Assembly: GCA_020060215.1 (NCBI GenBank)
Contig: JAGVAP010000088.1
Coordinates: 1-64,000, forward strand
From: Deltaproteobacteria bacterium
GTDB taxonomy: Bacteria > Desulfobacterota > DSM-4660 > Desulfatiglandales > HGW-15
Reading direction: 5' to 3'
Length of the DNA: 64,000 nucleotides
Shown: positions 1 to 24,110 of the stretch, one piece after another
Numbering within the stretch: position 1 is the stretch's first letter
How the letters are laid out: each line of letters opens with the position of its first letter
The notes under the pieces: generated by a model
The model's database searches: none
Told to the model about the DNA's origin: nothing
The model's input: the letters and a program-made list of their open reading frames with translations, nothing else
Position numbers and translations under genes: made by a program

Positions 1-767
<767 letters not shown>

Positions 768-3509: not shown

Positions 3510-3539
3510 TGGCGATGGACCGGGTCGGCTTCGCGCAGA

Positions 3540-4910: not shown

Positions 4911-4959
4911 TGTTTAGCCCGGAAGGCGGAGTTCAGTATAGTTCCGCGTCCCTTTAAAA

Positions 4960-6093: not shown

Positions 6094-6115
6094 GGGCAGC
6101 CTCTCCGAGCGAAGA

Positions 6116-7015
6116 TCACCGGGACGTGAAAAACCGCCCGATGGCGATGAACCCCCCCGTGAGCCCGAGTATCAGGCCGAGAAAAACGAGGAGAAGGATG
6201 TAGCGGTACGGCAGGAAAACGATCCGGATCGAGGGGACACCCAGCAGATGGATCTTTTCCAGGGCGAACGCCAGGTGAAGGGAAAAGAGGACCAGGAGGG
6301 CCATCAACCCCCCGAGCAACCCCTGTGCAGCCCCCTCGATGAGGAGAGGGGCCCTCACGAACCAGTCGCTCGCACCTACCAGTTTATAGATTTCGATCTC
6401 TTCCCGGCGCGAGTAGATGGTCAGCTTGATGGTATTGGTCACGATCAGGAGGACAGCCATGCAGAGGAGGAACCCGGTCACCATCCCTGCAATCTTCAGG
6501 GCCCGGAGCACGCCGTCAAACCGCTCCTGGTACTGCTCGCTGTACTGGACCTCGGCGACCCCCTTCACCTTCTCCAGATCCGCCTTGGCCGCCTTCGGGT
6601 CGAACCGCTCCCTGTCCGTGTCCTTGAAGATGATCTCGTAAGAGGCGGGGAGGAGACTCTTGGACAATCCATCCAGCAGACCGGCCTGAGCGCCCAAGGC
6701 GGTCCTGAGGTCGGAGAAGGCCTGCTCCTTCGAGACATAATTCTCGATCTCCGCGCCCGGGATGGCTCTGAGGGCCTCTTCGATCCGCTTTCTTGCGGTC
6801 GGATCCACCCCGTCCTCCAGGTAGACCGACATGGAGACGGACTTGCCCCATTCCACCACCCACTGACTGACGTTCACGAAGAACAAGGCGAACGCTCCCA
6901 GGAAGAGGAGGGAAATGGTGATGGTTCCAATGCTGATCGCATGGATCAGCCTGTTCTGAAACATCCCCCAAAAGGCCTGGGTGAAATGGTATGCCCAGAT
7001 TCTCAGCGGCCGCAT
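6116..7015 (-). CDS. ftsX: Cell division protein FtsX (permease-like)
   Basis: The 299-residue product shows the FtsX layout: a cytoplasmic start, TM1 (about 22-47), a periplasmic loop of about 120 residues that in other species binds the amidase activator, then three TM segments (about 175-195, 222-245, 268-290). With FtsE it forms a type VII ABC transporter-like complex at the septum. It lies downstream of ftsE, separated by a 93-bp repeat-rich gap. Confidence 0.94.
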   Translation of the reverse strand: MRPLRIWAYHFTQAFWGMFQNRLIHAISIGTITISLLFLGAFALFFVNVSQWVVEWGKSVSMSVYLEDGVDPTARKRIEEALRAIPGAEIENYVSKEQAFSDLRTALGAQAGLLDGLSKSLLPASYEIIFKDTDRERFDPKAAKADLEKVKGVAEVQYSEQYQERFDGVLRALKIAGMVTGFLLCMAVLLIVTNTIKLTIYSRREEIEIYKLVGASDWFVRAPLLIEGAAQGLLGGLMALLVLFSLHLAFALEKIHLLGVPSIRIVFLPYRYILLLVFLGLILGLTGGFIAIGRFFTSR

Positions 7016-7020
7016 GTGTT

Positions 7021-7108
7021 TCTCAACTTCGGTTCCCCGTTCTCCGTTCCCCGTTCAGCGGTTGAGCCTCAACCCTTAAACCTCTGAACCTTGGAACCCC
7101 TGAACCCT
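7021..7108 (-). repeat. Dispersed heptamer-like repeat, copy 1 (ftsE-ftsX gap)
   Basis: Almost the whole ftsE-ftsX gap is built from short near-repeats: TTCTCCGTTCCCCGTTC followed by runs of the type AACCTCTGAACCTTGGAACC. The same two blocks occur inverted at 14819-14915 between selD and yedF. The arrangement suggests a mobile or slippage-generated intergenic element rather than a regulatory site of either operon. Confidence 0.7.
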
Positions 7109-7759
7109 CTACTCCACGATCCTGCCCCTGTTCAGGACCACGATCCTCTGGTCCGTGTTCCGCAAGAGCTCCTTGTTGTGCGTTGCAATGATGACGGTGG
7201 TCCCCTTCAGGTTGATGCTGCGGAAAAGAACCATGATCTCCCTGGTGATGTCGGGGTCAAGATTGCCGGTAGGCTCATCGGCCAGCAGGATCAATGGGTC
7301 ATTGACGATGGCGCGCGCTATGGCGACCCTCTGTTGTTCTCCTCCCGAGAGCTGCAGGGGGTAGGCCTGTTCCTTTGAGGCGAGTCCCACGGCCCTGAGG
7401 ACCTGATGGGTCTTTTTCCGGATCAGGGATCGTCGATCGCCTGCGACCTCCAGGGCAAGAGAGACGTTCTGAGAGGCGGTCCTGCTGTTGAGCAGCTTGA
7501 AATCCTGAAAGACAAACCCGATCTTTCTCCTGAGAAGGTCGAGCTTCGATCTCTTGATGCGACCCAGATTGATTCCGTTGATCAGGATCTGGCCTCGGGT
7601 AGGATCCTCGGCCCCGAAGATGAGGCGCAGGAGGGTGGTCTTCCCCGCACCGCTCGGACCCGTGATGAAGACGAACTCGCCCCTGCGTATTCTCAGGTTG
7701 AGCTCGCTGAGGGCCTCATTCGGACCAAAGCTCTTCGATACATGGTAGAGTTGAATCAC
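7109..7759 (-). CDS. ftsE: Cell division ATP-binding protein FtsE
   Basis: This is a 216-residue ABC ATPase of the expected length. The Walker A motif is GPSGAGKT (residues 34-41), the signature is LSGGEQQR, and Walker B is LLADEPTG, followed by the switch histidine in IIATHN. It pairs with FtsX to couple ATP hydrolysis to septal peptidoglycan splitting through the EnvC-like protein downstream. The start codon is GTG. It begins 22 bp after the TolC-family gene. Confidence 0.96.
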   Translation of the reverse strand: MIQLYHVSKSFGPNEALSELNLRIRRGEFVFITGPSGAGKTTLLRLIFGAEDPTRGQILINGINLGRIKRSKLDLLRRKIGFVFQDFKLLNSRTASQNVSLALEVAGDRRSLIRKKTHQVLRAVGLASKEQAYPLQLSGGEQQRVAIARAIVNDPLILLADEPTGNLDPDITREIMVLFRSINLKGTTVIIATHNKELLRNTDQRIVVLNRGRIVE

Positions 7760-7780
7760 GGTGCGGCTGCGCCTGGATCA

Positions 7781-9133
7781 TCAATTCTCGCCCATGGCTC
7801 TCTGCAGTCTCGCTTTTGCCACGTGGTGTTCAATGAGGGCGGAGTAGTAGTTGAGCCTTGCTCTCGTAAGGAGCGCCTGTGCATCCAGGACCTCGGTGGT
7901 GGTCGTGACCTGGGCCCTGTAGCGTTCCTGGGTGACCCTCAGGTTCTCTTCCGCCTGCTCCACCGCCTTCTTGGTGGTGGGGATGTTCTTTTCCGCCTGG
8001 TTCAGGTCCAGCCCGGCCTGGATGAGTTCGAGACGAATATTCTGCATGAGGTTTCCCTTGGTCTCCAGCAGCTGCATCTTTTCGCTCACCCTTTCCCTTA
8101 CCGCATTCCTTGTCTTGCCCCATTCCCAAAAGGTCCAGGTGAGCAGCGCACCGGCCTGCCACATCTCCTCATTGTGGAACTCGCTGCCGGATACGTCGAA
8201 CTGATCCCCCTCCTTGATATAATCGTAGGACACGCTCACTTCGGGATAATAACGGCTCTTGGCCAGTCGAATCTGCTGATCGGCCTGGAGCAGCGCTATG
8301 TTCACGAGTTTCATCTCCGGCCGATGCAGGAACGCCTTCTCCAATCCCTCTTCGAGCTGAAAGACGATAGGCTGGTAGGCGGAGATGTCTTCGACGTCGA
8401 CCGGCAGGTGCGTGGGTCTGGCGAGCACATTGTTGAAGGAGGCCCTGTTGCTCAAGGCCGCATTCTGCGCCCTCACGAGGTTCTGCTCGGCAATCCCGAG
8501 TTCGACTTCCGCCTTGAGCAGGTCGTTGATCGGGATGATCCCCACTTCATAGAAATTCCTGGCCACCTCCAGGTGGGCCCGGAGGGCCTCCATCTCCCGC
8601 CTGACCACGTCTATGGCGAAATCGGACCTGAGTATGCTGAAGTAACCCTCTTTGACCGCCAGGATCAGGTTCAGTTTCTCCTGCTCGAGTTCCCACTCCG
8701 ATCGGTCGATGCCCAGCTTGGCCAGTTCATAGGTGCTCAGGAGGGCAAAGCCCGTGAACACGGGCTGCCGCACGGTGGATCTCCACAGGTAATTGTCTTC
8801 CGTGTTCAACTGCCGAGAGGGGATCACCAGACCGCCCCCCAGCGGAACGGCGGCGCTCACGTTGGCGTCATCAAGCCTGGTGTAGGAATAGCTGGTGCTG
8901 AGCTTGGGGTAAAAATCGGCCTTGGCCTGCTCCTTGACAAACCGGGCCTCGTCGACCTGCTCCCGCTTGATCTTGAGCAGGTAGTTGTTTTCCAGCGCCT
9001 CCAGAATCGCCTTTTCGAGGGTGAAGAAGTTCTCCTCTTTCACCTCCTCTGCATGGGTGGCCATTCCTGGGGAAAAAACCAGCAAAAGCGCGACGATGAA
9101 TGCACATCGGCCCCTTCGCCAAGTGAACGTCAT
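7781..9133 (-). CDS. TolC-family outer membrane efflux protein
   Basis: The 450-residue protein has a signal peptide (about 1-28, ending near THAEE) and two long helical OEP repeats characteristic of TolC. Conserved features include the LxxAxxxALxxN-like opening of the first repeat (LEKAILEALENN) and the TTTEVLDAQALLTRARLNYYSAL end of the second. Such proteins trimerise into an outer membrane channel for RND or type I export. It is the first gene of the block, so it may be co-transcribed with ftsEX; no inner-membrane pump is adjacent. Confidence 0.93.
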   Translation of the reverse strand: MTFTWRRGRCAFIVALLLVFSPGMATHAEEVKEENFFTLEKAILEALENNYLLKIKREQVDEARFVKEQAKADFYPKLSTSYSYTRLDDANVSAAVPLGGGLVIPSRQLNTEDNYLWRSTVRQPVFTGFALLSTYELAKLGIDRSEWELEQEKLNLILAVKEGYFSILRSDFAIDVVRREMEALRAHLEVARNFYEVGIIPINDLLKAEVELGIAEQNLVRAQNAALSNRASFNNVLARPTHLPVDVEDISAYQPIVFQLEEGLEKAFLHRPEMKLVNIALLQADQQIRLAKSRYYPEVSVSYDYIKEGDQFDVSGSEFHNEEMWQAGALLTWTFWEWGKTRNAVRERVSEKMQLLETKGNLMQNIRLELIQAGLDLNQAEKNIPTTKKAVEQAEENLRVTQERYRAQVTTTTEVLDAQALLTRARLNYYSALIEHHVAKARLQRAMGEN

Positions 9134-9631
9134 AGATCATTCCTCCGCACGGTTCCGAACGCTCTAATCATTAAAATAGGGGCATGGATATGTCAAATAT
9201 CAAATGTGGCAACAAGACACCACCACATCACTGTCTCTCCATCCCTGTGCCCCGCTCACCCTCACGTTCCTCTCAATCGATTCCCATATTCCAGAGGCAT
9301 CCGCCAAATCCAGGTATGTCGGCAGACCCCCCCAATCCGGTCAGCCCAAATCCCTGTCGCTCCTCTTCGTACTTGAAAGGCAGCAAACCCTGTGCAATCA
9401 TGTTCTCTCACCTCGTTGATGATAGATCGTTTGTGGTGAACGCATTCTATCCGCTTGTCTCTACAAGCTCAACGAGGTGATTCTATTTCCTTGACGGTGA
9501 ATCCAGGTCCCCCGTTCGCTCTTGACTTTGGTGGCGGAGCTTGGCATTCATTTCAGGCCTACTTCCGCTTTTTCTCCAATCTGGTCCTCGGAGTCCCAGG
9601 ATTCCGAAAATGCTCCTCAGGGGGTTCGCCG
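9134..9631. other. 498-bp divergent intergenic region, tolC / degQ
   Basis: This region lies between the divergent tolC and degQ genes and contains no convincing gene. Its notable content is the perfectly paired element at 9408-9480. Short reading frames here do not resemble proteins and are partly in low-complexity sequence. Confidence 0.6.
9408..9480. other. Three-way-junction inverted-repeat element upstream of degQ
   Basis: An outer 12-bp perfect inverted repeat (TCACCTCGTTGA 9408-9419 with TCAACGAGGTGA 9469-9480) encloses two further stems. Stem 2 is GATAGA (9421-9426) with TCTATC (9446-9451), extended by CGTT (9428-9431) with AACG (9439-9442) around loop TGTGGTG. Stem 3 is GCTTGT (9453-9458) with ACAAGC (9463-9468) around loop CTCT. 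Junction linkers are only 1, 1 and 0 nt. It could be a structured RNA in the degQ 5' leader, a small RNA or a folded-DNA element; no known family was recognised. Confidence 0.7.
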
Positions 9632-10777
9632 ATGAACAGGGGCAAATGGTTTTACACGGTGCTCGTATTTCTCTTGGTCGTCCTTGTCCTCGAAAGGGAC
9701 AGGGTGATGGAGATCTTCCGTCCAAGGCCCACAGCCGAATCCCTCCAGTTTAACCAGGTCGACCGACAGGTAGAGACGAGGCCGATCATCATGTCCCCCG
9801 AGGAGAAGATCAACATGGAAGTCTTTGAGAGGAACCGGCCGGCGGTCGTCAATATCGCCGCAACCACCCTCGGTATCAACTTCTGGATGGAAGTTATCCC
9901 AAGGGAAGGACAGGGGACGGGATTCATCGTAGACAAGGCTGGGTACATCCTCACCAACAATCACGTCATCGGCAAGGCCCAGAAGATCACGGTGACCATG
10001 GCGGACGGGGCCAAACACCCTGCCACGCTGGTCGGGAGGGACCCCTCTTCGGATCTGGCGGTCATCAAGGTCGGTTCGGATGCGGTCGACGCAGTGGCGA
10101 CCCTCGGAGACTCGGATGGACTGAGGGTGGGACAGCGGGCCATTGCCATCGGGAATCCGTTCGGACTCTCCCACACCCTGACTACGGGGATCATCAGCGC
10201 ATTGAGGAGAGAGATCGGCGGCGAGGACGGAACCGCGATGTCGGACCTGATTCAGACGGATGCGGCGATCAATCCCGGAAACTCAGGGGGCCCGCTCCTG
10301 AACTCCAGCGGCGAGGTCATCGGTATCAACACCGCCATATTCAGTCTCTCGGGCGGCAATCAGGGCATCGGCTTCGCCATTCCCATCAACCATGCCAGAG
10401 AGATCGCCACCGGCCTGATCACGGCGGGCAAGGTGCGGCGGCCATGGCTGGGGATCACAGGCATTTCCATTACCCCGGACCTGGCCCGTGGACTCAACCT
10501 GCCGGTGGTGAGCGGGATCCTGGTCGTGGAGGTCCTGCCGGGGGGTCCATGCGACAGGGCCGGGCTCAGAGGAGGCAGCAGGGAGGCCGTCGTCGGAAGC
10601 CTCCGGCTCAGCACCGGAGGGGATATCATCACGGGGCTCGGCGGGAAAAGGATATCGGAGATGAAAGAGCTCCTGAACGCCATGCAGAGATTGAAGGTCG
10701 ATCAAACCATAACCCTCCAGGTCATCAGGAACCGCTCAGCACTGGACGTTCAGGTGGTCTTGGACGAGAGGGGCTAG
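9632..10777 (+). CDS. Trypsin-like serine protease, DegQ/HtrA family
   Basis: An N-terminal membrane anchor or signal (residues 5-20) is followed by a chymotrypsin-like domain with the full triad: H111 (TNNHVIG), D141 (SSDLAVIKV) and S218 (NPGNSGGPL). One PDZ domain occupies about residues 275-375. The family degrades misfolded envelope proteins. ATG 9632 is preferred over an upstream in-frame start because CAGGGGGT lies just before it and the hydrophobic segment then sits at the N-terminus. It is monocistronic and overlaps the 3' end of the next, convergent gene by 4 bp. Confidence 0.93.
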   Translation: MNRGKWFYTVLVFLLVVLVLERDRVMEIFRPRPTAESLQFNQVDRQVETRPIIMSPEEKINMEVFERNRPAVVNIAATTLGINFWMEVIPREGQGTGFIVDKAGYILTNNHVIGKAQKITVTMADGAKHPATLVGRDPSSDLAVIKVGSDAVDAVATLGDSDGLRVGQRAIAIGNPFGLSHTLTTGIISALRREIGGEDGTAMSDLIQTDAAINPGNSGGPLLNSSGEVIGINTAIFSLSGGNQGIGFAIPINHAREIATGLITAGKVRRPWLGITGISITPDLARGLNLPVVSGILVVEVLPGGPCDRAGLRGGSREAVVGSLRLSTGGDIITGLGGKRISEMKELLNAMQRLKVDQTITLQVIRNRSALDVQVVLDERG

Positions 10778-11067
10778 GGATCGGGCTCCTCGTGCCCAAG
10801 GAGCACCATTCTCCTTTTTGCCTCCGCCCTCCTTTTCGCTTCCCATTCGTTCCACTCCGCCTTGAGCCTTTCGATCTTTTCCATCAGATCGGCTCCCTCC
10901 GGGGAATCGATCTCCGTGCCTTTCAGCCGATCCTTCAATGCCCTAACCCTGGTCTTGATCTCCCTCATGACATTCAGTGCGGCCACCTCCTCTTCCGTGG
11001 GGACCTGAACCTGCCCGCAGCACTGCGGGGTCTTTCCGATCGTCTCCAATCCGTCGCTCTTCGCCAT
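10774..11067 (-). CDS. Conserved hypothetical coiled-coil protein (97 aa)
   Basis: No function is recognised. The product is charged and helical, with a vicinal cysteine pair near the start (PQCCGQ) and a predicted coiled coil over about residues 28-90 rich in K, R and E. The stop codon overlaps the end of degQ on the other strand. It diverges from the Rrf2 gene, with 165 bp between them. Codon usage and amphipathic periodicity support a real small gene. Confidence 0.65.
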   Translation of the reverse strand: MAKSDGLETIGKTPQCCGQVQVPTEEEVAALNVMREIKTRVRALKDRLKGTEIDSPEGADLMEKIERLKAEWNEWEAKRRAEAKRRMVLLGHEEPDP

Positions 11068-11175
11068 CGGTGCTCTCCTTCTTGATCTATGCCGTAGTCC
11101 TGGAATCTGACCGCACGCTCCCCACTCTCTCGACCCCGGGGCTCACATTCAAGGGCGCGGGGCTTTATCAAGTTG

Positions 11176-11204
11176 TTGACATTCTAACCACACCCCCATA
11201 GTAT
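11176..11204 (+). promoter_or_regulatory. Promoter of the Rrf2-MBL-LysR operon
   Basis: TTGACA (11176-11181) and TAGTAT (11199-11204) are separated by 17 nt. An upstream ATG at 11203 lies inside the -10 box, which argues that the Rrf2 protein starts at 11233 instead. Confidence 0.65.
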
Positions 11205-11232
11205 GAATATAGTCTTCTTTTTGGATTCATCC

Positions 11233-11682
11233 ATGAAACTCTCAACACGCGGACGATATGGGACCCGGCTGATGGTGGAGCTTGCCAGGAACTACGGTAA
11301 AGGCCCGACCAGTATAGCCGAGATTTCGAGAAAGCAGGACATCCCGATCAAGTACCTGGAGCAGTTGATCATCCCGCTCAAGAAGGCCGATCTGGTCAGG
11401 AGCGCTAGAGGCCCCAAGGGAGGCCACATGCTTGCGACTTCCCCGGACAAGATCAACCTGTGGGATATCCTGACCCTGCTGGAGTCCAAATCTTCCCTGG
11501 TGGACTGCCTGGTCGACGAGAGCGTGTGCCCCCACACAACCACCTGTCCGGTGCGCCCGGTGTGGGGGAGGGCCCTCGATGCCCTGGTGCAGATCTTCAG
11601 GACAACCACGCTGCGGGATGTGGCCGAATCTCCCAACGCCGACTACGCTTCTCTCCCTTCCTGCCATGAAGCTGTTCGATGA
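11233..11682 (+). CDS. Rrf2-family transcriptional regulator with cysteine cluster
   Basis: This 149-residue winged-helix protein begins MKLSTRGRYGTRLM, the standard Rrf2 opening, with the wing around RGPKGGHML. Three cysteines in a C-X6-C-X5-C arrangement (DCLVDESVC and CPHTTTC) match the region where IscR/NsrR-type members bind an Fe-S cluster, so a redox, iron or NO sensor is plausible but unproven. It overlaps the next gene by 17 bp. Its position at the head of a selenium-metabolism cluster suggests it may control that cluster. Confidence 0.9.
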   Translation: MKLSTRGRYGTRLMVELARNYGKGPTSIAEISRKQDIPIKYLEQLIIPLKKADLVRSARGPKGGHMLATSPDKINLWDILTLLESKSSLVDCLVDESVCPHTTTCPVRPVWGRALDALVQIFRTTTLRDVAESPNADYASLPSCHEAVR

Positions 11683-12322
11683 CCTGCATGCCTTTTTCTG
11701 GACGGATCCGACCACCAACAATGCAAACACCTATCTGGTCAACGGCCCGAACAAGGTCCTGATCGATCCCGGCCATGCCCATTTGTTCGGGGTCGTGAAA
11801 GCCCAACTGGAGCTGTTGGGCCTTTCCCCGCGGGACATCGACCTGGTCATCGCCACCCATGCCCACCCGGATCACATGGAAGCGCTTCATTTTTTTTCCG
11901 GCGCACCCGCACTGGTCGCGTTCCCAAAACCGGAGTTTGAGGCCATCGCCGGCGATCCGCTTTCCGGCGGGCTCATCGTACCCGAGCAGTTCGAGCCCGA
12001 CATCCTCCTGCAGGAAGGGACATTGAGCGTGGGGGAGACGACCATGGAGGTCTACTGGACGCCCGGACACTCCCCCGGCTCCATTTGCATCTATTGGCCC
12101 AGCCGTCGCGCCCTGTTCAGCGGGGACGTCGTCTTCAAGCAGGGTTTGGGACGGACCGACCTGCCGGGAGGCAGCGGGCAGGCGCTGAAGCAGAGCATCC
12201 GCGAACTCTCGTACCTGGATGTGGAACTCCTCCTTCCGGGCCATGGGGAACCCGTCCACGGCCGTGATGCCGTCAGGAGAAATTTTGACGACATTGAGAG
12301 AACCTGGTTCGGGTTTCTGTAA
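11666..12322 (+). CDS. MBL-fold metallo-hydrolase
   Basis: The 218-residue protein contains the metallo-beta-lactamase motif THAHPDH (HxHxDH), plus downstream metal-ligand segments near TPGHSPGS, FSGDVVF and LPGHGEPV, of the glyoxalase II-like type. The start is ATG 11666, which lies inside the end of the Rrf2 gene; the longer frame upstream has no family character. The stop overlaps the LysR start (TAATG). The substrate is unknown. Translational coupling to both regulators suggests it belongs to the same response. Confidence 0.9.
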   Translation: MKLFDDLHAFFWTDPTTNNANTYLVNGPNKVLIDPGHAHLFGVVKAQLELLGLSPRDIDLVIATHAHPDHMEALHFFSGAPALVAFPKPEFEAIAGDPLSGGLIVPEQFEPDILLQEGTLSVGETTMEVYWTPGHSPGSICIYWPSRRALFSGDVVFKQGLGRTDLPGGSGQALKQSIRELSYLDVELLLPGHGEPVHGRDAVRRNFDDIERTWFGFL

Positions 12323-13269
12323 TGAAGAAGAGCGCCGCACCCGGGACCATTGTCGACTTTGACCTGCGCCAGCTTGAAGTCTTCAGCAAGGTGGTGGAGC
12401 TTGGAAGCTTCTCCAAGGCCGCAGAGGCGGTCTTCCTTGCCCAGGCCTCGGTGAGTGAAAGGGTCGCTACGCTGGAGGGCATGGTCGGCACCAGGCTCCT
12501 GGACCGTCTCGGACGGCGGATCGTCCCCACCAGGGCCGGCGAGATGCTCTATCGACACGCCCGCAAGCTCCTGGAAATGAAGGCCGCGGCCAGGATGGAA
12601 TTGCAGGATTTCCTGGGGCTGAAGAGAGGCGAAATCCGGATGGGAGGGAGCACCATCCCCGGGGAGTACATCCTTCCCCGGGTCATCGGCCGATTTCTCC
12701 GCACCTATCCCCTGATCAACATCGTCGTCGACATAGCCGACTCCGAAGAGATCGAGACCAGGCTCCTCAAGGGACACATCGAGCTCGCGGTCATCGGTCG
12801 CAAGGGTTCAAACAGGAACCTCGAGAGCCGGAGGCTCTGGGGGGATGAGCTGGTCGTGGTGGTGCCTGCAGGACATCCGTGGGCACGATCGAAAGAGGTC
12901 ACCTTCGGGGAGTTGTCCGGAGCGCCGTTCCTCTCGAGGGGACCCGGTTCGGCCACCCTGAGGAGCCTGGAAGACCGGCTGAAGGCGGCGGGCGTGAGGG
13001 GTGTTGAATCGTTCAACGTGGTGGCGAGCATGGGAACGTCCACCGCAGTGAAGGAAGGCATAAAGGCCGGTATCGGCGTATCGGTCCTCTCATCCAGGGC
13101 CGTGGAAACGGAGGTGAAGACCGGTATTCTGAAGACCCTCAGGTTGAAAGGGGTTGCCATGGTCCGCCGTTTCTACCTCATCAGAGACAGGCGTATGACC
13201 CTTTCCCCTCCATGCAGGGAGCTTCACGATTTCCTCTTCCGGACGGCTGGAGAGAGTCAGGACCCGTAG
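12322..13269 (+). CDS. LysR-family transcriptional regulator, selenium-metabolism-associated type
   Basis: The 315-residue protein has an N-terminal helix-turn-helix (about residues 12-72, DLRQLEVFSKVVELGSFSKA) and a LysR effector-binding domain (about 100-300) beginning GEIRMGGSTIPGEYILPR. That segment resembles the LysR regulators found beside selD/yedF genes, and both lie just downstream here. It overlaps the MBL gene by one base (TAATG). The ligand is unknown. It may activate selD-yedF or its own operon. Confidence 0.9.
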   Translation: MKKSAAPGTIVDFDLRQLEVFSKVVELGSFSKAAEAVFLAQASVSERVATLEGMVGTRLLDRLGRRIVPTRAGEMLYRHARKLLEMKAAARMELQDFLGLKRGEIRMGGSTIPGEYILPRVIGRFLRTYPLINIVVDIADSEEIETRLLKGHIELAVIGRKGSNRNLESRRLWGDELVVVVPAGHPWARSKEVTFGELSGAPFLSRGPGSATLRSLEDRLKAAGVRGVESFNVVASMGTSTAVKEGIKAGIGVSVLSSRAVETEVKTGILKTLRLKGVAMVRRFYLIRDRRMTLSPPCRELHDFLFRTAGESQDP

Positions 13270-13768
13270 CCCATCGGAATTTCCCCCCGCAAGCCCCCCG
13301 GTACTATCGTTTTTTCCTGTTGGACATATCGTCTATTCCCGGCTTAAGATCCCTACTGACTACCCGGCCATGAGCAGTGGTGCAGGAGTAAGGCCGCGCA
13401 GTCATTTCCGGAGTGGACACCGGTCGGCCCCCATTGTCAGGTTCGTGCTGGGCGCGGTCGGCATGGTCGGCGCCCTCGTCTTCCCTCTTCTTGAAGGGGG
13501 CATAGAACCTGGGCCGTTCCGGGAAGACCTACAGGTCCGCAGGATGCTGATCATGCTCGGGTTTCTGGCGCTCATGATCCTGAACACGACTGGCTAATAA
13601 GCGATCCCGACTCCGGCAACCCCGGTGATGAAGATCATGGGGCATATCCCCCGGGCGAAGAGAGCGACGCTCACCCCTACACCTCCTTGAAATGGGAGAG
13701 ACACTGTTCTATTTTGGAGAAGGCGAGCTTTTTCGTGGTAGCGGCTATGCACTTGGCGGGGTGTGGGA
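13270..13768. other. Gap between LysR regulator and selD with possible gene remnants
   Basis: No intact gene is evident. A 75-codon plus-strand frame (13370-13597) encodes two hydrophobic stretches (APIVRFVLGAVGMVGALVFP and MLIMLGFLALMILNTTG) and then stops. A minus-strand stretch near 13605-13680 reads as hydrophobic membrane-protein-like sequence. Together these look like decayed transporter fragments, but the family cannot be named with confidence. Confidence 0.4.
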
Positions 13769-14818
13769 ATGGCTGAGAAAAGCGGTTATCGGCTGACGGA
13801 AAAGGTCAAGGGGGCCGGGTGAGCGTCAAAGCTCGGTCCAGGGGACCTGGACCAGGCTCTCTGCGGCCTGAAGCTGCCTACGGACCCCAATCTCCTTGTG
13901 GGATTGGAAAAGACCGACGATGCCGGCGTCTACCGGATCAATGACGAACTGGCGATCATCCAGACGGTCGATTTCTTCACACCCATCGTGGACGACCCTT
14001 ACTGGTTCGGACAGATTGCTGCTGCAAACGCCATCAGCGACGTTTATGCCATGGGCGGGGTCCCGAAAACCGCCATGAATTTGATCGGCTTCCCTTCCAA
14101 GGAGATGGAGCTTTCCGTCCTTCGCCGAATGATCGAAGGGGGCCTGGACAAGATCCGGGAAGCAGGGATGGTCCTCGTCGGAGGGCACACCATCGATGAT
14201 CCGGAGCTGAAGTACGGCCTTTCCGTGACGGGGTTCGTGCATCCCGATCGGGTCCTGGTCAAGAGGAATCTGAACCCGGGAGATCGTCTGATCCTGACTA
14301 AGCCCCTCGGGACCGGGATCATCTCCACGGCGATCAAGGGCGGCCTCGCCTCCGCGGATCTGGTGCAACTGGTGACTGGTGCCATGGCCACGCTCAACCG
14401 CACTGCCGCCGAAGTCATGGATCGCTTTCCCGTCCATGCCTGCACCGACGTCACGGGTTTCGGGTTGCTGGGCCACCTTGCGGAGATGGTGGTCGGATCC
14501 GGTCATGGAGTTGGAATCGAATCGGCGCGTATCCCCGTTTTTCCCGAAACCGACGGCCTTGCGACCATGGGGATCATCCCGGCAGGGGCTCACCGGAATC
14601 GACAATACCGGGAGGGGATGATCGAATTTTCCCCTTCGGTCAGCCGGTCGATGCAGGACATCCTCTTCGACCCCCAGACCTCCGGAGGGCTCCTGATCTC
14701 CGTGGCCGGTGAGAAGGCCGAGGAGTTGCGGGATGCACTCCTTGCCGGGGGTGTAAAGGATGCGGCCATCGTGGGGGAGGTAGTGTCCGAGCCTAAGGAG
14801 AGGATCGTCGTATATTGA
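13769..14818 (+). CDS. selD: Selenide, water dikinase SelD (predicted selenoprotein, Sec at TGA 13820-13822)
   Basis: SelD makes selenophosphate from selenide and ATP. A conventional reading would begin near 13898 and lack the catalytic N-terminus. Reading from ATG 13769 through the in-frame TGA gives 349 residues, close to the 347 of E. coli SelD, with AGUASKLGPGDLDQAL at the active site. U18 and K21 keep the C-x-x-K spacing of the E. coli catalytic Cys17/Lys20. The rest aligns with SelD: TDDAGVY, TVDFFTPIVDDP, VGGHTIDD and TDVTGFGLLGH. A hairpin suited to a bacterial SECIS follows the TGA. Sec-containing SelD is known in other bacteria. yedF follows. Confidence 0.92.
13820..13858 (+). promoter_or_regulatory. 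Sec codon and SECIS-like hairpin in selD
   Basis: After the TGA (13820-13822) the mRNA can form a 7-bp perfect stem, GGTCCAG (13835-13841) with CTGGACC (13847-13853), capped by the loop GGGAC. It is extended below by AGC (13830-13832) with GCT (13856-13858) across a 2x2 internal loop. The apical loop starts 19 nt after the TGA and begins with G, inside the distance and loop rules known for bacterial SECIS elements recognised by SelB. Confidence 0.75.
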
Positions 14819-14920
14819 AAGGTTCAGAGGTTCAAGGGTCCAAAGGTTCAGAGGTGGAAGGAGAAAGTGGAGCAACCGCCAACCTGTGAACGGAGAACCC
14901 TGAACGGGGAACGTGTGGAG
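14819..14920 (+). repeat. Dispersed heptamer-like repeat, copy 2 (selD-yedF gap)
   Basis: The gap consists of AGGTTCAGAGGTTCAAGG-type near-repeats followed by GAACGGAGAACCCTGAACGG. These are the inverse complement of the two blocks at 7021-7108, in mirrored order, so the two sites carry the same element in opposite orientation. Confidence 0.7.
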
Positions 14921-14927
14921 AGAAGAG

Positions 14928-15536
14928 ATGGGAAAAAGCTATTTGGACTGCCGGGGCCTTGCCTGTCCTGCCCCGGTGTTGAAGACAAAGAACCTCATAG
15001 ACAAAGAGCGTCCGGATGTCATCGAGATTGCCGTGGACAACGATGCGGCCAGGGAGAACGTCTCCCGGTTCTTGAACTCCCAGGGTTTCGAAGTCTCCGT
15101 CGAAGGTAGCGGTGCGCAGTTCCAGGTCACCGGCAAGAGGGCAGATGCGGCGCCATCCGCTGCCGTGCATGCCTCGCCCGAGAAATCCCCGGATCAGAAG
15201 AAGATCATGGTGATGACCGCGACCGATCGCATGGGAAAGGGCGATGAGGAGCTGGGTCTCAAGCTGATGGCGAGCTTTCTGAAAACGCTGCAGGAGATGG
15301 GTCCCGAACTCTGGAGACTCGTGCTTGTGAACAACGGGGTGAAGATGGCTGTCGAAGGTTCCGAGTTCCTGCCGGACATCAAGGAACTGGAGCGCCAGGG
15401 GGTGCATGTCCTGGTCTGCGGCACCTGCCTGAATCACTTTGGGCTGATGGGGCGCAAGCGGGCGGGGGAGACGACCAACATGCTGGATATCGTCACCTCC
15501 ATGCAGGTGGCGGATAAGGTCATCAACATCAGCTAA
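14928..15536 (+). CDS. yedF: Sulfurtransferase-like selenium metabolism protein YedF
   Basis: The 202-residue protein joins a TusA-like domain (about residues 1-72, DCRGLACPAPVL with the conserved CPxP cysteine) to a DsrE-like domain (about 85-202) containing VCGTCLNHFG. This two-domain form accompanies selD in many selenium-using bacteria and probably handles persulfide or selenide cargo. ATG 14928 is chosen because GGAGAG precedes it and the TusA motif starts at once; an upstream GTG at 14913 lies in the repeat. The gene is the last of the cluster and ends at a palindromic repeat. Confidence 0.92.
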   Translation: MGKSYLDCRGLACPAPVLKTKNLIDKERPDVIEIAVDNDAARENVSRFLNSQGFEVSVEGSGAQFQVTGKRADAAPSAAVHASPEKSPDQKKIMVMTATDRMGKGDEELGLKLMASFLKTLQEMGPELWRLVLVNNGVKMAVEGSEFLPDIKELERQGVHVLVCGTCLNHFGLMGRKRAGETTNMLDIVTSMQVADKVINIS

Positions 15537-15617: not shown

Positions 15618-16919
15618 TCAGAAATCCTTGAAGTCCGCGTCGCTCAACGGAATCACCTGCTCCGGATGAACCTCCCTCGGCTTGGCCGGGACCACCGCCT
15701 TTTCCTTTGCGGTCTTTACCGGTGCGATGATCGCCGTCTTTTCACTCCTGGATCTTGATGGCTTGGCCTTTTCACTCCCTGCTGCATACTGCCCACTGCC
15801 TACCGATTTCCCACCGCCTCCCACCATGGCCACCAATTCGTTGACATAGGCCTTCATCTGCACGGCCTGCTGGTTCATCTCCTCCGAGGCGCTGGCGTTT
15901 TCTTCCGCACTGGACGCGTTCTGCTGGACCACCTTGTCCATCTCGGCGACGGCCTTGTTCACCTGCTCGATCCCCTGGGACTGCTCCTTGGACGCGGCGG
16001 CGATCTCCGCCACAAGCCCTGCCACCTTGGAGGCGGTATCGGCCACCTTCGTGAAGGCCTCGTTGGTCCTGGTGACCAGGCCCGATCCGTCCTTGACCTT
16101 TTTCACCGTCCCCTCGATCATGCCGGCCGTGTTCTTGGCCGCATCCGCCGCCCTCATGGCCAGATTCCGCACCTCGTCGGCCACCACCGCAAAACCCGCA
16201 CCCGCTTCTCCGGCCCTGGCGGCCTCGACCGCCGCGTTCAGGGCCAGGAGGTTCGTCTGGAAGGCGATCTCGTCGATGGTCTTGATGATCTTCGAGGTCT
16301 CCTCGCTCGCCTTGGTGATCTCTTCCATGGATTTGGTGAGTTCCTTCATGGAGCCGTTCGCATGCTCCGTCACCGCGCCGGCTTCTTTCATCAAGGCATC
16401 GGCCTGGTCCGCATGCTCCGAGTTCAACTTGGTCATGGAGGCCATCTCCTCGAGCGAAGAGGAGGTCTCCTCGATGGAAGCGGCCTGCTGGGAGGCGCCG
16501 CTGGAGAGGGCCTGGCTGGAAGAGGAGACCTGGCTCGATGCGGATGCCACCTGTTCGGCGCCTCTTTGAAGCCCCTGGATGATCCTCTTCAGCCCCCCGG
16601 TAACGCTCCCGGCGATGAGAAACGCGCAAACCACCCCGATGGCGACGGAGATCAGGGAGAGCACGGTGATGACAGCCCGGATGCCGCCTGTCCCTTCATC
16701 CAGATGCTTTCGGAAAGTCTCGGCCTGCCGGTCGATCTGACCCCTGTCGGCGGACCCCTTGGCGCCTTCCCCCAGCACGTCCCTGAATTCCTGAACCGCA
16801 GTTTTGGAAACTGAACTCAGACCCACTTGGGCAGTGACCGCAACCATGATCAACAGCAGCAGGACGACCCCGAAACCCAGACCCAGGAGTTTTTTCACAC
16901 CCATCTTCGACATACCCAT
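15618..16919 (-). CDS. Methyl-accepting chemotaxis protein (MCP-1)
   Basis: The 433-residue receptor has two TM segments (about 8-33 and 82-103 from this start) around a short periplasmic part of about 50 residues, so little ligand-binding domain is present. A long signalling hairpin follows, with tip sequence [20 protein letters not shown] and [13 protein letters not shown]. The C-terminal linker overlaps a dispersed repeat (15773-15806). The protein ends in the tail motif [15 protein letters not shown] shared with the two other MCPs nearby. ATG 16919 is preceded by AAAGGAG at good spacing. It lies 31 bp downstream of cheW. Confidence 0.92.
15773..15806 (-). repeat. GCAGTATGCAGT-type dispersed repeat inside MCP-1 linker
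   Basis: The plus strand reads ACTCCCTGCTGCATACTGCC-CACTGCCTACC. Close relatives lie at the matching linker position of MCP-2 (17889-17925) and MCP-3 (20780-20820) and outside MCPs at 61984-62018. In frame it encodes [10 protein letters not shown] between the signalling domain and the tail. Confidence 0.6.
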
Positions 16920-16949
16920 ATCTGATCTCCTTTCCTCCATGCCCTTTTT

Positions 16950-17444
16950 TCACATACCCGTACCATCCTGCAGGACCCGGTCGATATCGAGGAGAATCTT
17001 CACCCCCCCGGACATCTTGGCCATGCCCAGGATGTAGTTGGTATTCACCTGTGTCCCGAACCCCGGCGTCTCTTCGATGTCATCCGATTTGATGTTCAGC
17101 ACCTCGGAGACCGAGTCCACGATGAGCCCGACCATCAGGTTTCCGGAACCGGAGTCCACTTCGACGACCACGATGCAGGTCCTCTCGGTGTACTCGGCCG
17201 CATCCACGCCGAAGCGCATCCGCAGATCCATCACCGGGATGACCTTGCCCCGGAGGTTGATGACGCCCCTCACGAATTCAGGGCAGCGGGGGACCTTGGT
17301 GATCGGCATCATGCCGATGATCTCCTTGATCTTGAGGATCCCGATCCCGTAATCCTCCTTCGCGAGCGTGAAGGTCAGGTATTTTCCATCCTTCTCCGAC
17401 ATCCTGCCGATTGCCTGCGCCATGACTTGAGCTTCCGATCCCAT
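16950..17444 (-). CDS. CheW-family chemotaxis adaptor (copy 1)
   Basis: This 164-residue, single-domain CheW couples receptors to the CheA kinase. The signature runs are LTFTLAKEDYGIGILKIKEI, VPRCPEFVRGVINLRGKVIP and DSVSEVLNIKSDDIEETPGF. It is closely similar to the copies at 24107-24616 and 44504-45010. AGGAGGTGGATGA precedes ATG 17444. It sits upstream of MCP-1 in the same direction. No cheA is present in this window. Confidence 0.95.
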   Translation of the reverse strand: MGSEAQVMAQAIGRMSEKDGKYLTFTLAKEDYGIGILKIKEIIGMMPITKVPRCPEFVRGVINLRGKVIPVMDLRMRFGVDAAEYTERTCIVVVEVDSGSGNLMVGLIVDSVSEVLNIKSDDIEETPGFGTQVNTNYILGMAKMSGGVKILLDIDRVLQDGTGM

Positions 17445-17746
17445 TCATCCACCTCCTGACGCTTATTCCTCAGTAACCCCGGACGTGATCTACGGGGGTC
17501 TTCGCGTTCACCGATGATCCTTCTCAGGATTTCCGTCGGCGTATATCATGATATTCAATACCCGTGCCGATCCGCGCAATCCACATCAACCATGAGACAT
17601 CCTTGGCTTTTAAGGTATGCGGCTCTTCCTGCACCACTCGGTCCCCGGACCTGTGAGTCGGAATCCCCGCTTTGTTTCGTCAGCTTTCCGTCGCTCTGCG
17701 CAAAGGGATGGGGCTACCGCCACGAGGTCACAGCGGCCGGCTTTCA
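17445..17746. other. 302-bp gap between MCP-2 and cheW copy 1
   Basis: No gene or clear regulatory structure is recognised. GC-rich short inverted repeats occur (for example around 17620-17740), but they match no riboswitch that I can name. The promoter for cheW-MCP-1 probably lies here. Confidence 0.4.
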
Positions 17747-19498
17747 TCAAAAATCCTTGAAATCCCCTTCGTTCAGGGGAATCACCTGCTCCGGGGACAC
17801 CTCCCTCGGTTTGCCGGGGATCACCGCCTTTTCGACTGCCGCCTCTGCCGGTGCGATTACCTTTTCTTTTCGACTCTTTCTTGATCTTTCACTCCCTACT
17901 GCATTCTGCTTGCTCCTTACCGTCTTGCCACCGCCGCCTTCCACCATGGTCACGAGTTCACCGACATATCCCTTCATCTGCTCCGCCTGGGAATACATCT
18001 CGCTCGATTCGCTGGCGTTCTCCTCCGCATTGGCCGCATTCTGCTGTACGACCCTGTCCATTTCGGCGACCGCCTTGTTCACCTGCTCGATGCCCAGGGA
18101 CTGCTCCTTGGACGCCGCAGCGATCTCCGCCACCAGCCCTGCGACCTTCGATGCCGTATCGGCCACCTTTACGAAAGCCTCATTGGTCCTGGTGACCAGG
18201 CCGGAGCCGTCCTTGACCTTGTTCACCGTCCCCTCGATCATGGCGGCCGTGTTTTTGGCCGCATCCGCCGCCCTCATGGCAAGGTTCCGCACCTCGTCGG
18301 CCACCACCGCAAAACCCGCACCCGCTTCTCCGGCCCTTGCTGCCTCGACCGCCGCGTTCAGGGCCAGGAGATTGGTCTGGAAGGCGATCTCGTCGATGGT
18401 CTTGACGATCTTGGAGGTCTCCTCACTCGCCCTGGTGATCTCTTCCATGGAGTTCGTGAGTTCCTGCATGGAGCCGTTGGCATGTTCGACCACCTCTCCC
18501 GCCTCCTTCATCAGCGAGTCGGCCTGCTCTGCATGCTCCGCGTTCGACTTGGTCATGGAGGACATCTCCTCCAGCGAAGAGGAGGTCTCCTCGATGGCGG
18601 CCGCCTGCTGGAAAGCTCCTTCGGCAAGGGCCTGGCTCGAAGCGGAGATCTGGTCCGAGGCGGAACTCAACCTTTCGGAACTATCCCTCAGTCGTTCGAT
18701 CACCCGGTTCACCGGATCGATGACCGATTTCCTGGTCAGCGCCCACATCGTCAGACAGACGACCGCGAGGGCCGAGCCGATCAGGAGGGCGATCACCGTC
18801 GCGATCTTCCTCTCGGTCTTTTTCCCGGCCCCCTCCGCATTCTCTCTGGCCTTCTCCCTGGACTGAACACCCGAATTCTGAACCCATTCAGCCAGGCCGC
18901 GGTTCTTGTCGTTGACTCGGCTGAAGACGCCCTTCGTCTTGGAGACGAATTCCTTCATCGCCTTCAGGCTCACCTGCATTTCGATCTCCAGGTAGGCCGA
19001 CCCTTGTGGACTCTTCCATGAGAAGAGCTGATGATCGCCTCCCGCAGGCTGCCTCTGGCCGAAGAGGAATACGTCCGACTCCTTGGCGTTCTCGCTTGTC
19101 TTGACGGAAAGCCAACGAATGTCCTTTTCCGTTTCCAGGGTCTTGCCCACGATCCCTTTGGCCGAATCGTAATCGAAGAGTTCGATCAGCGGCAGGATCC
19201 GGTTCCCGAGGGACTGGAGGCTCTTTCTGCAGCCTTCTTCAAACTGGGCCTGTACGAGACCCTGGATTTCACTGTCCGCCGCGCCCAGATCCTTGGCCAC
19301 ATTCTGGAAACCTTCACGAAGGGTGTGCAGCGATTGTTCTCTTTCCTGCTGGAAGTCCGAGATGATGGTCTGGACGAGAGAACCGTTACTGGTGCGGATC
19401 ACGCTCAGCATGATCAGACCGAGGGCCAGGAATACCACCGCCATCGTGAATGCGGTAACGGACATGAACTTCAGCGAAAGGCTCCAGTTCACCTTCAT
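17747..19498 (-). CDS. Methyl-accepting chemotaxis protein (MCP-2)
   Basis: The 583-residue receptor has TM1 (about 12-34), a periplasmic sensor of about 200 residues rich in charged helices, TM2 (about 232-255) and a cytoplasmic signalling domain nearly identical to MCP-1 and MCP-3 around the tip ([20 protein letters not shown]). The sensor type is not recognised. The C-terminus carries a repeat-derived linker and the tail [16 protein letters not shown] strong RBS (GGTGGAGGAATGATCC) precedes ATG 19498. It is the downstream neighbour of the binding-protein gene at 19596, which might supply its ligand. Confidence 0.93.
17889..17925 (-). repeat. Dispersed repeat inside MCP-2 linker
   Basis: CACTCCCTACTGCATTCTGC-TTGCTCCTTACC on the plus strand is a close copy of the segments in the linkers of MCP-1 and MCP-3. 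In frame it encodes [12 protein letters not shown]. Confidence 0.6.
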
Positions 19499-19595
19499 GG
19501 ATCATTCCTCCACCTGCCCCAGGAGGGGCACAGACCTTCAAGACACGTCAAGAACGCGACCATGCCGTCGAATCCACTCCCGAGGGGGAATCCGC

Positions 19596-20408
19596 CTACC
19601 ACTTGTACTGCTTTGGGTCGATGTTCCCTTTCTTCATGAGCGCGAGACTCGGCTCCAGCAGCGAGGGGTTCATATCCTTGAATTCCCTCACCCCAAAGAG
19701 AGCCACATTGCCCAGGACGGCGCTCTTGATCTTGCCCGCCTGTTCCGGGGTAACGGCCTTGCTGGCGCTGATAATATGATCGGGGTTCAGGTAGCCGGAG
19801 ACCCCGGGGTAATCGAACCGGGCCATGTCCTCATATTTCTCTTTGTTCTCCTCCCACCACCAGTCCTTCACGAAGGCTCCTTTCGCCTTTCCCACCTTGA
19901 CGGCGTTCACCGCTGCCGCGTGGTTCTTGGCCGGGACCGCCGCCTTCCCCTCGGTGGCGGCCATGGCGGCGGATTCGCCGCTGCTGGCGCCCTTGGCAAA
20001 AGAAATGGCATCCGACGCTTCTTTGACGACCTTTACGGGATCAGACCCGGCCGTTCTGGGGATGATCAACACCCCCCTGTACATCTCCTTCCCGTCCACA
20101 CCCTGCAGCAGTGTGGATGAAATCCCCTGCTGATAGAGGGTCGCCTGGACGAAACTGCCCGCGTAGGTGAGGACAGGCTGTCCCTTTGCGAACGCATCGA
20201 TGATCTCCGGGTAGGTGTCTGCAATCCGCGGCCTGATCTCCAGTCCGCTCGATCGGGACAGGGACTCCGCGATCATCTTCGCCTTTGGCGCGTTCTCCTT
20301 CCATGTCGGGGTGAAGTAAAAGGTGATCTCCGATGCCCAGGTCACGGCCGGCAAGAACAGACCGGCAACCATGATTCCGATAACCCCTTTCAAACCCATT
20401 CTCCTCAT
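19596..20408 (-). CDS. PhnD-type phosphate/phosphite/phosphonate ABC substrate-binding protein (orphan)
   Basis: The 270-residue protein has a signal peptide (residues 1-25, cleavage after VTWA) and the type-2 periplasmic binding fold of the PhnD/SsuA-like family. Visible features are the opening EITFYFTPT, YAGSFVQATLY near residue 85 and KGAFVKDWWWEEN near 185. No permease or ATPase gene is adjacent; the neighbours are chemoreceptors. It may therefore present a ligand to MCP-2 or MCP-3 rather than feed a transporter, which is an inference from context. GGGAG lies 7 nt before ATG 20408. Confidence 0.85.
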   Translation of the reverse strand: MRRMGLKGVIGIMVAGLFLPAVTWASEITFYFTPTWKENAPKAKMIAESLSRSSGLEIRPRIADTYPEIIDAFAKGQPVLTYAGSFVQATLYQQGISSTLLQGVDGKEMYRGVLIIPRTAGSDPVKVVKEASDAISFAKGASSGESAAMAATEGKAAVPAKNHAAAVNAVKVGKAKGAFVKDWWWEENKEKYEDMARFDYPGVSGYLNPDHIISASKAVTPEQAGKIKSAVLGNVALFGVREFKDMNPSLLEPSLALMKKGNIDPKQYKW

Positions 20409-20638
20409 ATCATTCTCCCTTTATATCATTCTCCCTTTCTCTCAAGCTCATGTTCCAACCCGAGGTCCTCGGCCAAATGAAAGCCGTTCTCCTTCGACGC
20501 CCTGAACGGGAGCACCGTATCCAAGCGACTGATGCAAGCTCTATGCCTCTCTCAAGGACCGGCCCGGTAAACGACCCCAACCGGCCGGACCGGCCCCGCG
20601 GGCACGACATCGGTGTAAGACCGGAGTCCGTGCACTCG

Positions 20639-22795
20639 TCAGAAATCCCTGAAGTCCGCACCATTCAGGGGAATCACCTGCTCCGGAGACATCTCCCTCG
20701 GCTTCGCAGGCACCACCGCCTTTTCCACTGCCGCCTCCGCCGGCGCGACTACCGTTTCTTTTCGGCTCCTTCTTGATCTTTCACTCCCTACTGCATACTG
20801 CTTGCTCCTTGCTGCCTTCCCGCCGCCGCCTTCCACGATGGTTGCCAGTTCGTTGACATAATCCTTCATCTGCACGGCCTGGGAGTTCATCTCTTCCGAG
20901 GCGCTGGCATTCTCCTCGGCATTGGCCGCGTTCTGCTGGACCACCTTGTCCATCTCGGCCACGGCCTTGTTCACCTGCTCGATGCCCTGGGACTGCTCCT
21001 TGGACGCCGTCGCGATCTCCGCCACCAGCCCTGCGACCTTGGAGGCCGTGTCGGCCACCTTCACGAACGCCTCGTTGGTCCTGGTGACCAGGGCCGAGCC
21101 GTCCTTGACCTTCTTCACGGTCCCCTCGATCATGCCGGCCGTGTTCTTGGCCGCATCCGCCGCCCTCATGGCGAGGTTCCGCACCTCGTCGGCCACCACC
21201 GCAAACCCCGCACCCGCTTCTCCGGCCCTTGCAGCCTCGACCGCGGCGTTCAGGGCCAGGAGGTTGGTCTGGAAGGCGATCTCGTCGATGGTCTTGACGA
21301 TCTTCGAGGTCTCCTCGCTCGCCCTGGTGATCTCTTCCATGGATTTGGTGAGTTCTCTCATGGAGCCGTTGGCATGATCGACCACCTCTCCCGCCTCCTT
21401 CATCAAGGCATCGGCCTGGTCCGCATGTTCCGCGTTCAGCCTGGTCATGGAGGCCATCTCCTCAAGCGAGGAGGAGGTCTCCTCGAGGGAGGCCGCCTGC
21501 TCGGACGCCCCTTCGGCAAGGGTCTGGCTCGAGGCGGCTACCTGGGTGGCTCCGGAAGAGACCTGGTCGGCCCCTTCGTTGATCGCCTCGATCGATCTCT
21601 GGATCGGCCTGGCTATCCCTCTCGCCATGAGGATCCAGACGCCGGCCGCACCCAGCAGGGAAACACAGACGACAGCCAGAATGGCCATTCCACTGCGACT
21701 CCCAGTCTTTTCCATTTCCCTTGCACTCTCCAGAAACTCGTCCTCGTAGCTTCCGGCCCCGATCACCCAGTCCCAGTCCTTGAAGTACATGATCTTGGCC
21801 AGCTTCATCCTGGGTTTGGCCTCCCCTTCGTTCTGAAAAGGATAGCGATGCTCCGCCAGTTCTCCGGGCTTGAGCGCCACCGCCTTTTTGCAGATTTCCT
21901 GGATGAACAGGTTTCCGGTCGCATCCCTGGAATCGGAAATATCCTCCCCGTCGCGCTTTCCGTCCTTGGAAATGATGTATCGGCCTTTGCTGTCGAGAAC
22001 ATAGACATATCCGGTTCTTCCGACCCCTATGCTCATGATGCTTTTGGTCAGATCCTGCAAACTCTCCTGGGGGATCCCGACGTAGAGCATGCCGATCACC
22101 TGTCTTTCGCCGTTCATTATGGGGGAATATCCGGTGATGTACCATCCATTCACCACGAAGGCGCGGCCGCTGTACTCCTGTCCCTTCAGAACGGATGAGA
22201 CAACCGGGTTTGCCTGGCCGTCCTGGTTCACGGCAGGGATGTACGTTCCGATGGCGCGGTCCCCGTCCTTCCCTTTAACGGTGGTTGCGATACGCAGCAT
22301 ATCGCCCCCTTCATTCATACGCTGGAACACAGTGCAGGTCGCGCCGACCAGTTGCGTAACATAATCCACCAGAGGAACCTTCTCCCTGAAGTCCTTTGTC
22401 TGACCGAACTAGTCACCTCCTATGGTGACCTGAGGGAGCTCGACCTTTTGGACCGACTGGGTGAACTGGTTGACCGCACTCCACGTGACCTTTTCGTCGG
22501 GGTTGAGCAAGATGCCCCCCATGGATCCGGCCGTTTCACCTGCTACGTTCAGATAGTACTTCATGTTCTTCTGCGTGATCCCCTGAACCTTTTGGTGAGA
22601 TTCGGCCAGTGCATATACGTTTTTCGTGATTCGCTCCAATTCGGCTTTCGTCAGCCTCGTCGTTTCCGACACCGCGGTCTCCATCATCGAACCGTTCTGC
22701 TTATACACGATGGCTGAAACGATCAGTAAAGGCAGGGCCGTGATGATACACCCTGCCGTCAGCAGTCTGGTCTGCAGTTTCATCTTCTTGAACAT
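20639..22795 (-). pseudogene. Methyl-accepting chemotaxis protein (MCP-3) interrupted by an in-frame TAG
   Basis: Read through one amber codon (22409-22411, codon 129), this is a complete MCP of about 718 residues: TM1 (about 10-32), a Cache_3-Cache_2-type sensor (VTWSAVNQFTQSVQK, then [20 protein letters not shown] and [15 protein letters not shown]), TM2, and a signalling domain ending [15 protein letters not shown]. The frame is the same on both sides, with no indel. Related receptors, as I recall the family, have Trp at this place (GG-x-W-x-GQ), so a TGG to TAG change is likely. AAGGAGG precedes ATG 22795. Truncation at TAG would leave only TM1 and part of the sensor. Confidence 0.88.
20780..20820 (-). 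repeat. Dispersed repeat inside MCP-3 linker
   Basis: CACTCCCTACTGCATACTGC-TTGCTCCTTGCTGCC on the plus strand is nearly identical to the MCP-2 copy. It encodes [12 protein letters not shown], so the element is translated as a linker. Confidence 0.6.
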
Positions 22796-23984: not shown

Positions 23985-24110
23985 TCACGTAAGAAACCTC
24001 CCCCGCGCCGGTCCCGGATCAGGAGAAAGCACCTCCACGGGGGTCGATCCGAAGTCCTTGGGATCCTCATCGCTCAGGGGAGTCAGCTGCTCCGGATGCA
24101 CCTCGCTCAT
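23985..24110 (-). CDS. 41-aa ORF carrying an orphan copy of the MCP C-terminal tail motif
   Basis: The start ATG (24108-24110) overlaps the cheW stop as ATGA. The peptide begins MSEVHPEQLTPLSDEDPKDF, clearly the same tail as [15 protein letters not shown] of MCP-1, with HPEQ retained exactly. About 20 further residues follow without recognisable character. It is either a remnant of a deleted MCP or a small coupled peptide that offers the tail motif in trans or, by a -1 frameshift, as a CheW extension. Expression is unproven. Confidence 0.55.
   Translation of the reverse strand: MSEVHPEQLTPLSDEDPKDFGSTPVEVLSPDPGPARGRFLT

Follow-up and report, generated by a model that had tools for sequence, protein, structure and literature searches.

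A selD gene with a conserved in-frame UGA and a SECIS-like hairpin: a probable selenoprotein form of SelD in a deltaproteobacterial contig

The window, i.e. the whole stretch of 64,000 nucleotides of deltaproteobacterial DNA analysed here, carries a selD frame with a TGA at its 18th codon. This raises the question of whether the codon marks an error, lies outside the functional protein, or is read as a residue, and which one. An earlier note, made from the letters alone, had proposed that it encodes selenocysteine (Sec). The features are collected in Table 1.

Table 1. Features of the window and of three loci in relatives (L123 to L125)
Feature	Position	Strand	Basis and remarks
16S rRNA gene, partial	1-768	-	714.3 bits, cut by the window edge; used to judge kinship
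Selenium metabolism-associated LysR regulator	12322-13269	+	NF040786, 263.1 bits (cut-off 250); upstream of selD
selD, selenide, water dikinase	13769-14818	+	349 aa with predicted Sec18; stop TGA 14816-14818; read-through translation, TIGR00476, start-codon count
In-frame TGA, probably read as Sec	13820-13822	+	codon 18; TGA in 81/81 genes; aligned with the conserved Cys of 3u0o and 2yye
Putative bacterial SECIS hairpin	13835-13853	+	stem 13835-13842/13846-13853, apical loop GGA 13843-13845; energy, core fold, codon lock, PMC13188914 model
YedF, sulfurtransferase-like selenium metabolism protein	14913-15536	+	TIGR03527, 216.5 bits (cut-off 110); downstream of selD
tRNA-Sec-like gene	L125, 5245-5332	-	with SelB 2155-4125
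tRNA-Sec-like gene	L124, 4034-4125		
tRNA-Sec-like genes	L123, 3430-3517 and 5756-5843		

The selD frame and its TGA codon

When the TGA is taken as a residue, the frame yields a protein with U18 in a GAG-U-ASK context, and an N-terminal sequence that reads MAEKSGYRLTEKVKGAG-U-ASKLGPGDLDQALCG. This read-through protein scores 393.8 bits against the SelD profile TIGR00476 (cut-off 125), over profile positions 1 to 310 of 311. Such a score, far above the cut-off, supports the prediction that the gene encodes a member of the SelD family. Mechanical ORF detection gives 13898-14818, a frame of 306 aa with a GTG start; from this GTG alone the score is 357.2 bits over positions 41-310, so that the profile match begins at position 1 with read-through and at position 41 without it. 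The reading of the earlier note, a frame running through the TGA to a matching N-terminus, is therefore borne out. Its remark that gene callers would shorten the gene to about 13898 and lose the active site also holds, since the catalogue entry for the window SelD (P0002) has 304 aa and begins past the active site, and a further entry (P0003) begins four residues past the UGA equivalent.

The mechanical ORF and the 304-aa entry are what one would expect if the functional protein began past the TGA, at GTG 13898, and lacked the N-terminal loop. Against this, the codons on either side of the TGA have coding scores (0.28 per codon before it, 0.12 just after it), the residues N-terminal to position 18 are conserved among relatives, and the profile match reaches its first position. 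Moreover, a SelD without Cys or Sec would have no nucleophile to handle selenide. We consider such a late start extremely improbable. Of the 81 genes made up of the window selD and the relatives described below, 63 have a start codon 51 bases 5′ of the TGA (ATG in 58, GTG in 3, TTG in 2).

The residues U18 and K21 align with a Cys and a Lys in two PDB entries annotated as selenide, water dikinase, the chains 3u0o and 2yye, presumably from E. coli and Aquifex. The aligned Cys, which is the established catalytic residue, belongs to a G-x-G-C-x-x-K stretch in these solved chains. The U-x-x-K spacing of the active site is thus present, as had been claimed. The alignment with these Cys-type proteins spans query positions 5-340 and 9-341, respectively, with a predicted Sec here and a Cys there.

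Relatives were obtained by scanning a one-genome-per-species collection once, and the best 80 of 335 were kept. The query had Cys at position 18, meaning that the search was, if anything, biased toward Cys genes. TGA was found at codon 18 in all 81 genes (the window and the best 80 of 335 relatives). It was placed by motif in the window and 78 relatives, and by coordinate in L024 and L080, whose motif differs and which also have TGA. The N-terminal alignment suggested in the earlier note thus gives TGA in the 80 kept relatives and Cys in the PDB chains at the same place, which argues for Sec at the catalytic position of the window SelD.

Similar counts came from two other samples, which overlap with the first in several genomes, the nearest relative found (G001) being in all three. 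In the order of this nearest relative (85 genomes), all 70 SelD matches scoring 300 bits or more hold exactly one TGA; 69 of them, in 63 genomes, cover residue 18, and the match in G044 starts at residue 75. This count leaves out matches below 300 bits, which are pieces (G016 and G018 without N-terminus, G059 with four other stops), as well as weak matches of at most 60 bits and ∼24-34% identity, taken to be related proteins, e.g. ThiL and HypE, and one short piece in G092 (37.7 bits, 51%, one TGA). All 30 order loci that were opened have TGA at the motif, 29 by a first expression and L134 by a looser one. In a phylum sample of 297 genomes, searched with a Cys-type SelD query, 149 of the 150 matches listed hold one TGA, and the match in G221 holds none. 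Among 30 loci opened in this sample, 28 have TGA at the motif, one has TGC (L163), and one (L187) was unmatched by the expression.

Six genomes of the order (G045, G080, G072, G032, G091 and G084) have two Sec-type SelD matches each, both of at least 300 bits, the second being 46-62% identical to the window SelD. They may be paralogues, or the result of mixed bins.

A hairpin and a codon lock after the TGA

The earlier note had described a 7-bp stem with a G-starting loop, 19 nt past the TGA. The hairpin is there, and can be read either as 7 bp with a GGGAC loop, at 19 nt from the TGA, or as 8 bp with a GGA loop, at 20 nt. Its energy is -15 kcal/mol (25-nt stretch 13832-13856). The bacterial SECIS model quoted in PMC13188914 has a loop of 3-9 nt with a G within its first two bases, a stem of 4-16 bp, a UGA-to-loop distance of 16-37 nt and an energy of at most -7.5 kcal/mol. 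The window hairpin agrees with this model on every point: 3-nt loop, early loop G, 8-bp stem, 19-20 nt and -15 kcal/mol.

Pairing was followed across the 81 genes, counting the first base of the TGA as 0. Core pairs 18-30, 19-29, 20-28 and 21-27 can form in all of them and 22-26 in 79, and the outer pairs 17-31, 16-32 and 15-33 in 66, 22 and 15 genes, respectively. Given these counts, and a consensus fold which is likewise a 5-bp stem with a GGA loop, we regard the latter as the shared putative SECIS; compared to the 5-bp core of the 80 kept relatives, the window adds three pairs. When all genes are cut as the window (nt 12-36), 79 of the 81 have the core hairpin as their minimum-energy fold, 75 reach -7.5 kcal/mol or lower, and 73 show both; the core hairpin of L014 reaches -6.7 kcal/mol only. 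With nt 3-45, 74 of the 81 genes retain the core in their best fold, and longer or shifted cuts fold otherwise in some genes.

Two other indicators were set aside. Compared to shuffled sequences, the energy is weakly distinguished in the window (z of -1.54 for a 61-nt stretch, -2.34 for 25 nt) and in three relatives (z of -0.39 to -0.89, for cuts placed three bases further on than in the window); these scores were judged weak evidence, codon usage being the better test. Comparison of 13700-14000 with Rfam yielded no SECIS at E values up to 10, and Rfam was dropped as a SECIS detector after one weak chance match.

Synonymous codon usage was scored in columns whose main residue has synonymous codons and occurs in 50 genes or more (241 columns, 81 genes). 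The mean normalised synonymous entropy per codon is 0.82 (sd 0.17) over the whole gene. Codons 6 to 9 after the TGA are the four lowest columns, with 0.27, 0, 0.10 and 0 (mean 0.09), and among 132 runs of four codons none is as extreme as the one that starts at codon 6. Gly is GGG in 81/81 genes, Leu is CTG in 81/81, and Asp is GAC in 77/78. Pro is CCA in 71 of the 81 genes and CCG in 10, never CCC or CCT, so that its third-base purine always pairs with U, by A-U or G-U. Such a lock over the hairpin is what a SECIS element would require. Together with the agreement with the PMC13188914 model, it upholds the description of the hairpin as SECIS-like.

Single differences in the lock codons were seen by eye in Sec-type loci of the phylum and order samples (L159, L169, L170, L185, L186, L190 and L192). 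The five pairs are kept in all of these loci except L192, via G-U pairs or loop changes.

These data bear on the possibility that the TGA stems from a sequencing error, or has recently mutated from a TGT or TGC Cys codon, in which case the enzyme would be Cys-type or a pseudogene. Cys-type SelD does exist: P0021 and P0023, among the close database proteins, have GAGC at the Sec site, and the phylum sample holds one Cys gene (G221). The redox-active position, UGA in all 81 genes, is Cys in these two proteins and in L163. In L163 the residues PGDL are kept, the codons GGC and GAT are off the lock, and four pairs could still form; this control is one gene, with no statistic attached. In contrast, the window has its SECIS codons intact, and the frame 3′ of the TGA is open and conserved. 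The TGA is moreover found in 80 of 80 kept relatives, despite the Cys of the query. An error at this codon, which the earlier note had named among the findings that would overturn its reading, is thus excluded as far as sequence allows, and we give this explanation almost no weight.

Selenocysteine machinery in relatives and selenium-related neighbours

The window holds no tRNA gene, and the machinery for Sec was sought in relatives. The nearest one found, the MAG HGW-Deltaproteobacteria-15 (G001, locus L001), has a SelD 79% identical to that of the window, 96% identity to the 768 bases of 16S sequence in the window, and DNA matching in blocks of the same order across 4453-15529 of the window; we conclude that the window organism is related to it. 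More generally, the records of the relatives mostly bear Deltaproteobacteria or Desulfobacter-type names.

SelA, selB and tRNA-Sec were searched for in 14 relatives picked from the 80 loci, alongside 14 named control genomes. SelA and selB were above cut-off in 13 of the 14 relatives each, G003 having a selA fragment and only weaker selB matches, and tRNA-Sec was above cut-off in 11. Control genomes passed the cut-offs in 1, 2 and 5 cases out of 14, respectively. The tRNA-Sec cut-off being thus not clean, we counted only the 11 genomes in which ARAGORN called the best match a tRNA-Sec, with anticodon TCA in all; it called tRNA-Trp or tRNA-Ser in the other three. Second tRNA matches above cut-off were tRNA-Ser or tRNA-Trp where opened. 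No tRNA-Sec was found above cut-off in G007, G009 and G013, which have selA and selB, and the G001 tRNA probe was negative as well. For 13 of the 14 genomes, including each of these three, a first look had covered only 150 candidates, so that the gene may well have been missed. A search by anticodon-arm pattern in three genomes was uninformative.

In G001 itself, selA scores 618.8 bits, selB 391 bits and tRNA-Sec 73.6 bits, the latter with anticodon TCA. By analogy with these relatives, it is strongly implied that the window organism decodes UGA as Sec, and we regard this as very probable. Exact partial 3′ copies of the tRNA-Sec gene of G001 lie about 30 and 40 kb away from it (L131, G001:C37:33139-33205, 67 bases; L132, 23011-23034, 24 bases). 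This is presumably the pattern that elements integrating at selC would leave.

In three relatives a second SelB lies close to a tRNA-Sec-like gene, whose anticodon is GCA in G011, and TCA in G005 and G006. One of the extra SelB copies of G006 (L123, 1521-3400) is spread over two overlapping ORFs (175 and 451 aa), and is perhaps frameshifted or decaying. According to the review PMC7609411, selC*/selB* pairs occur in Syntrophobacterales and Desulfobacterales, selC* being a tRNA-Cys in Desulfobacterales. The pairs seen here fit this type and look like a known kind, and the idea of a new code variant was dropped.

The pairs with anticodon TCA in G005 and G006, and the tRNA-Cys nature of selC* in Desulfobacterales stated in PMC7609411, leave room for another reading of the selD codon: the UGA might yield Cys, through a tRNA-Cys of the selC* type that has a UCA anticodon, or another residue, through near-cognate read-through. 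However, G001 has the same codon and hairpin with one SelB above cut-off and one ordinary tRNA-Sec (by ARAGORN, loci opened), and Sec-containing SelD is an accepted selenoprotein family. Insertion of a residue other than Sec appears to us very unlikely.

The neighbours of selD also relate to selenium. A LysR homologue lies upstream of selD in L001 too, and within 2.5 kb upstream in 3 of the 62 relatives with enough upstream sequence. Among the 66 relatives for which 1.5 kb or more is available downstream, 32 have a YedF homologue after selD in the same orientation. The gap between LysR and selD (13270-13768) contains no ORF that reaches 80 aa, nor does its DNA match L001; it was left as non-coding.

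A scan of the window for UGA inside coding sequence, which is a crude test, found no second selenoprotein. Its seven TGAs are that of selD, four on the plus strand opposite minus-strand genes, and two gene ends. The latter (24658 and 16952) were rejected as Sec codons, as the next gene is in frame by chance. One ends a response regulator-PAS gene (24656-25432, minus strand), in frame with the following CheW gene (24107-24616); the other ends a 164-aa gene (16950-17444, minus strand), in frame with 15618-16940. Both look like ordinary operon junctions. The minus strand carries a chemotaxis-type cluster (15618-22369 and 24107-24616), with repeated receptor-like and CheW-like genes, and a phosphonate-type binding protein at 19596-20408 within it. 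One stretch of L001 matches both CheW-like genes, at 83% and 80%, and the same stretch that matches the CheW gene at 24107-24616 also matches the 164-aa gene.

A probable selenoprotein SelD and its possible control

Taken as a whole, the sequence evidence makes it nearly certain, in our judgement, that the window gene encodes the selenoprotein form of SelD, with Sec18 specified by the UGA through the SECIS hairpin. This reading is based on the frame, the TGA shared by 81 of 81 genes, the hairpin, the codon lock, and an N-terminus that is matched only via read-through. The selA, selB and tRNA-Sec genes of G001 and the selenium-metabolism neighbours LysR and YedF also point to it.

By analogy with the relatives and the known pathway, SelB carrying Sec-tRNA(Sec) would bind the hairpin, the ribosome would not stop at the UGA, and Sec18 would be inserted there. 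With Lys21 beside it, Sec18 would be the nucleophile of a flexible N-terminal loop that handles selenide. The enzyme would then make selenophosphate from selenide and ATP, and so supply SelA, and perhaps tRNA selenouridine. SelA, SelB, tRNA(Sec), Sec insertion and catalysis are all presumed in the window organism on these grounds.

Selenium-dependent control of SelD, proposed in the earlier note as feedback on selenophosphate synthesis, would be plausible, since its synthesis would depend on its own product. The abstract of PMC4513850 states that sufficient selenium is required for UGA to be recoded efficiently; wording on feedback or autoregulat- is absent from the main text of PMC4561486. 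A bolder proposal starts from the same dependence of SelD on Sec, hence on its own product: the UGA and SECIS would form a selenium-gated, self-amplifying switch, tuned by LysR and YedF, and cells that start again without any SelD would depend on a bootstrap, e.g. Cys inserted at the UGA. We hold this to be conceivable, and rather improbable.

In 2006, Zhang et al. (PMC1794560) listed SelD among the selenoproteins of many Deltaproteobacteria, e.g. Syntrophobacter, Desulfovibrio and Geobacter in their Table 3. Compared to these proteins, the window SelD is alike in family, in its predicted UGA-coded Sec at the N-terminal catalytic site and in its broad group, and differs, as far as tested, only in organism. 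It is therefore a further case of an established form, which is common in this bacterial group and has been known for some twenty years, and existing knowledge of SelD and Sec is unchanged by it. What the locus brings is a corrected gene model, the truncated version losing the active site, and a clear case, over 81 genes, of synonymous sites locked on a probable SECIS element. It also marks the window organism as one that very probably decodes UGA as Sec.
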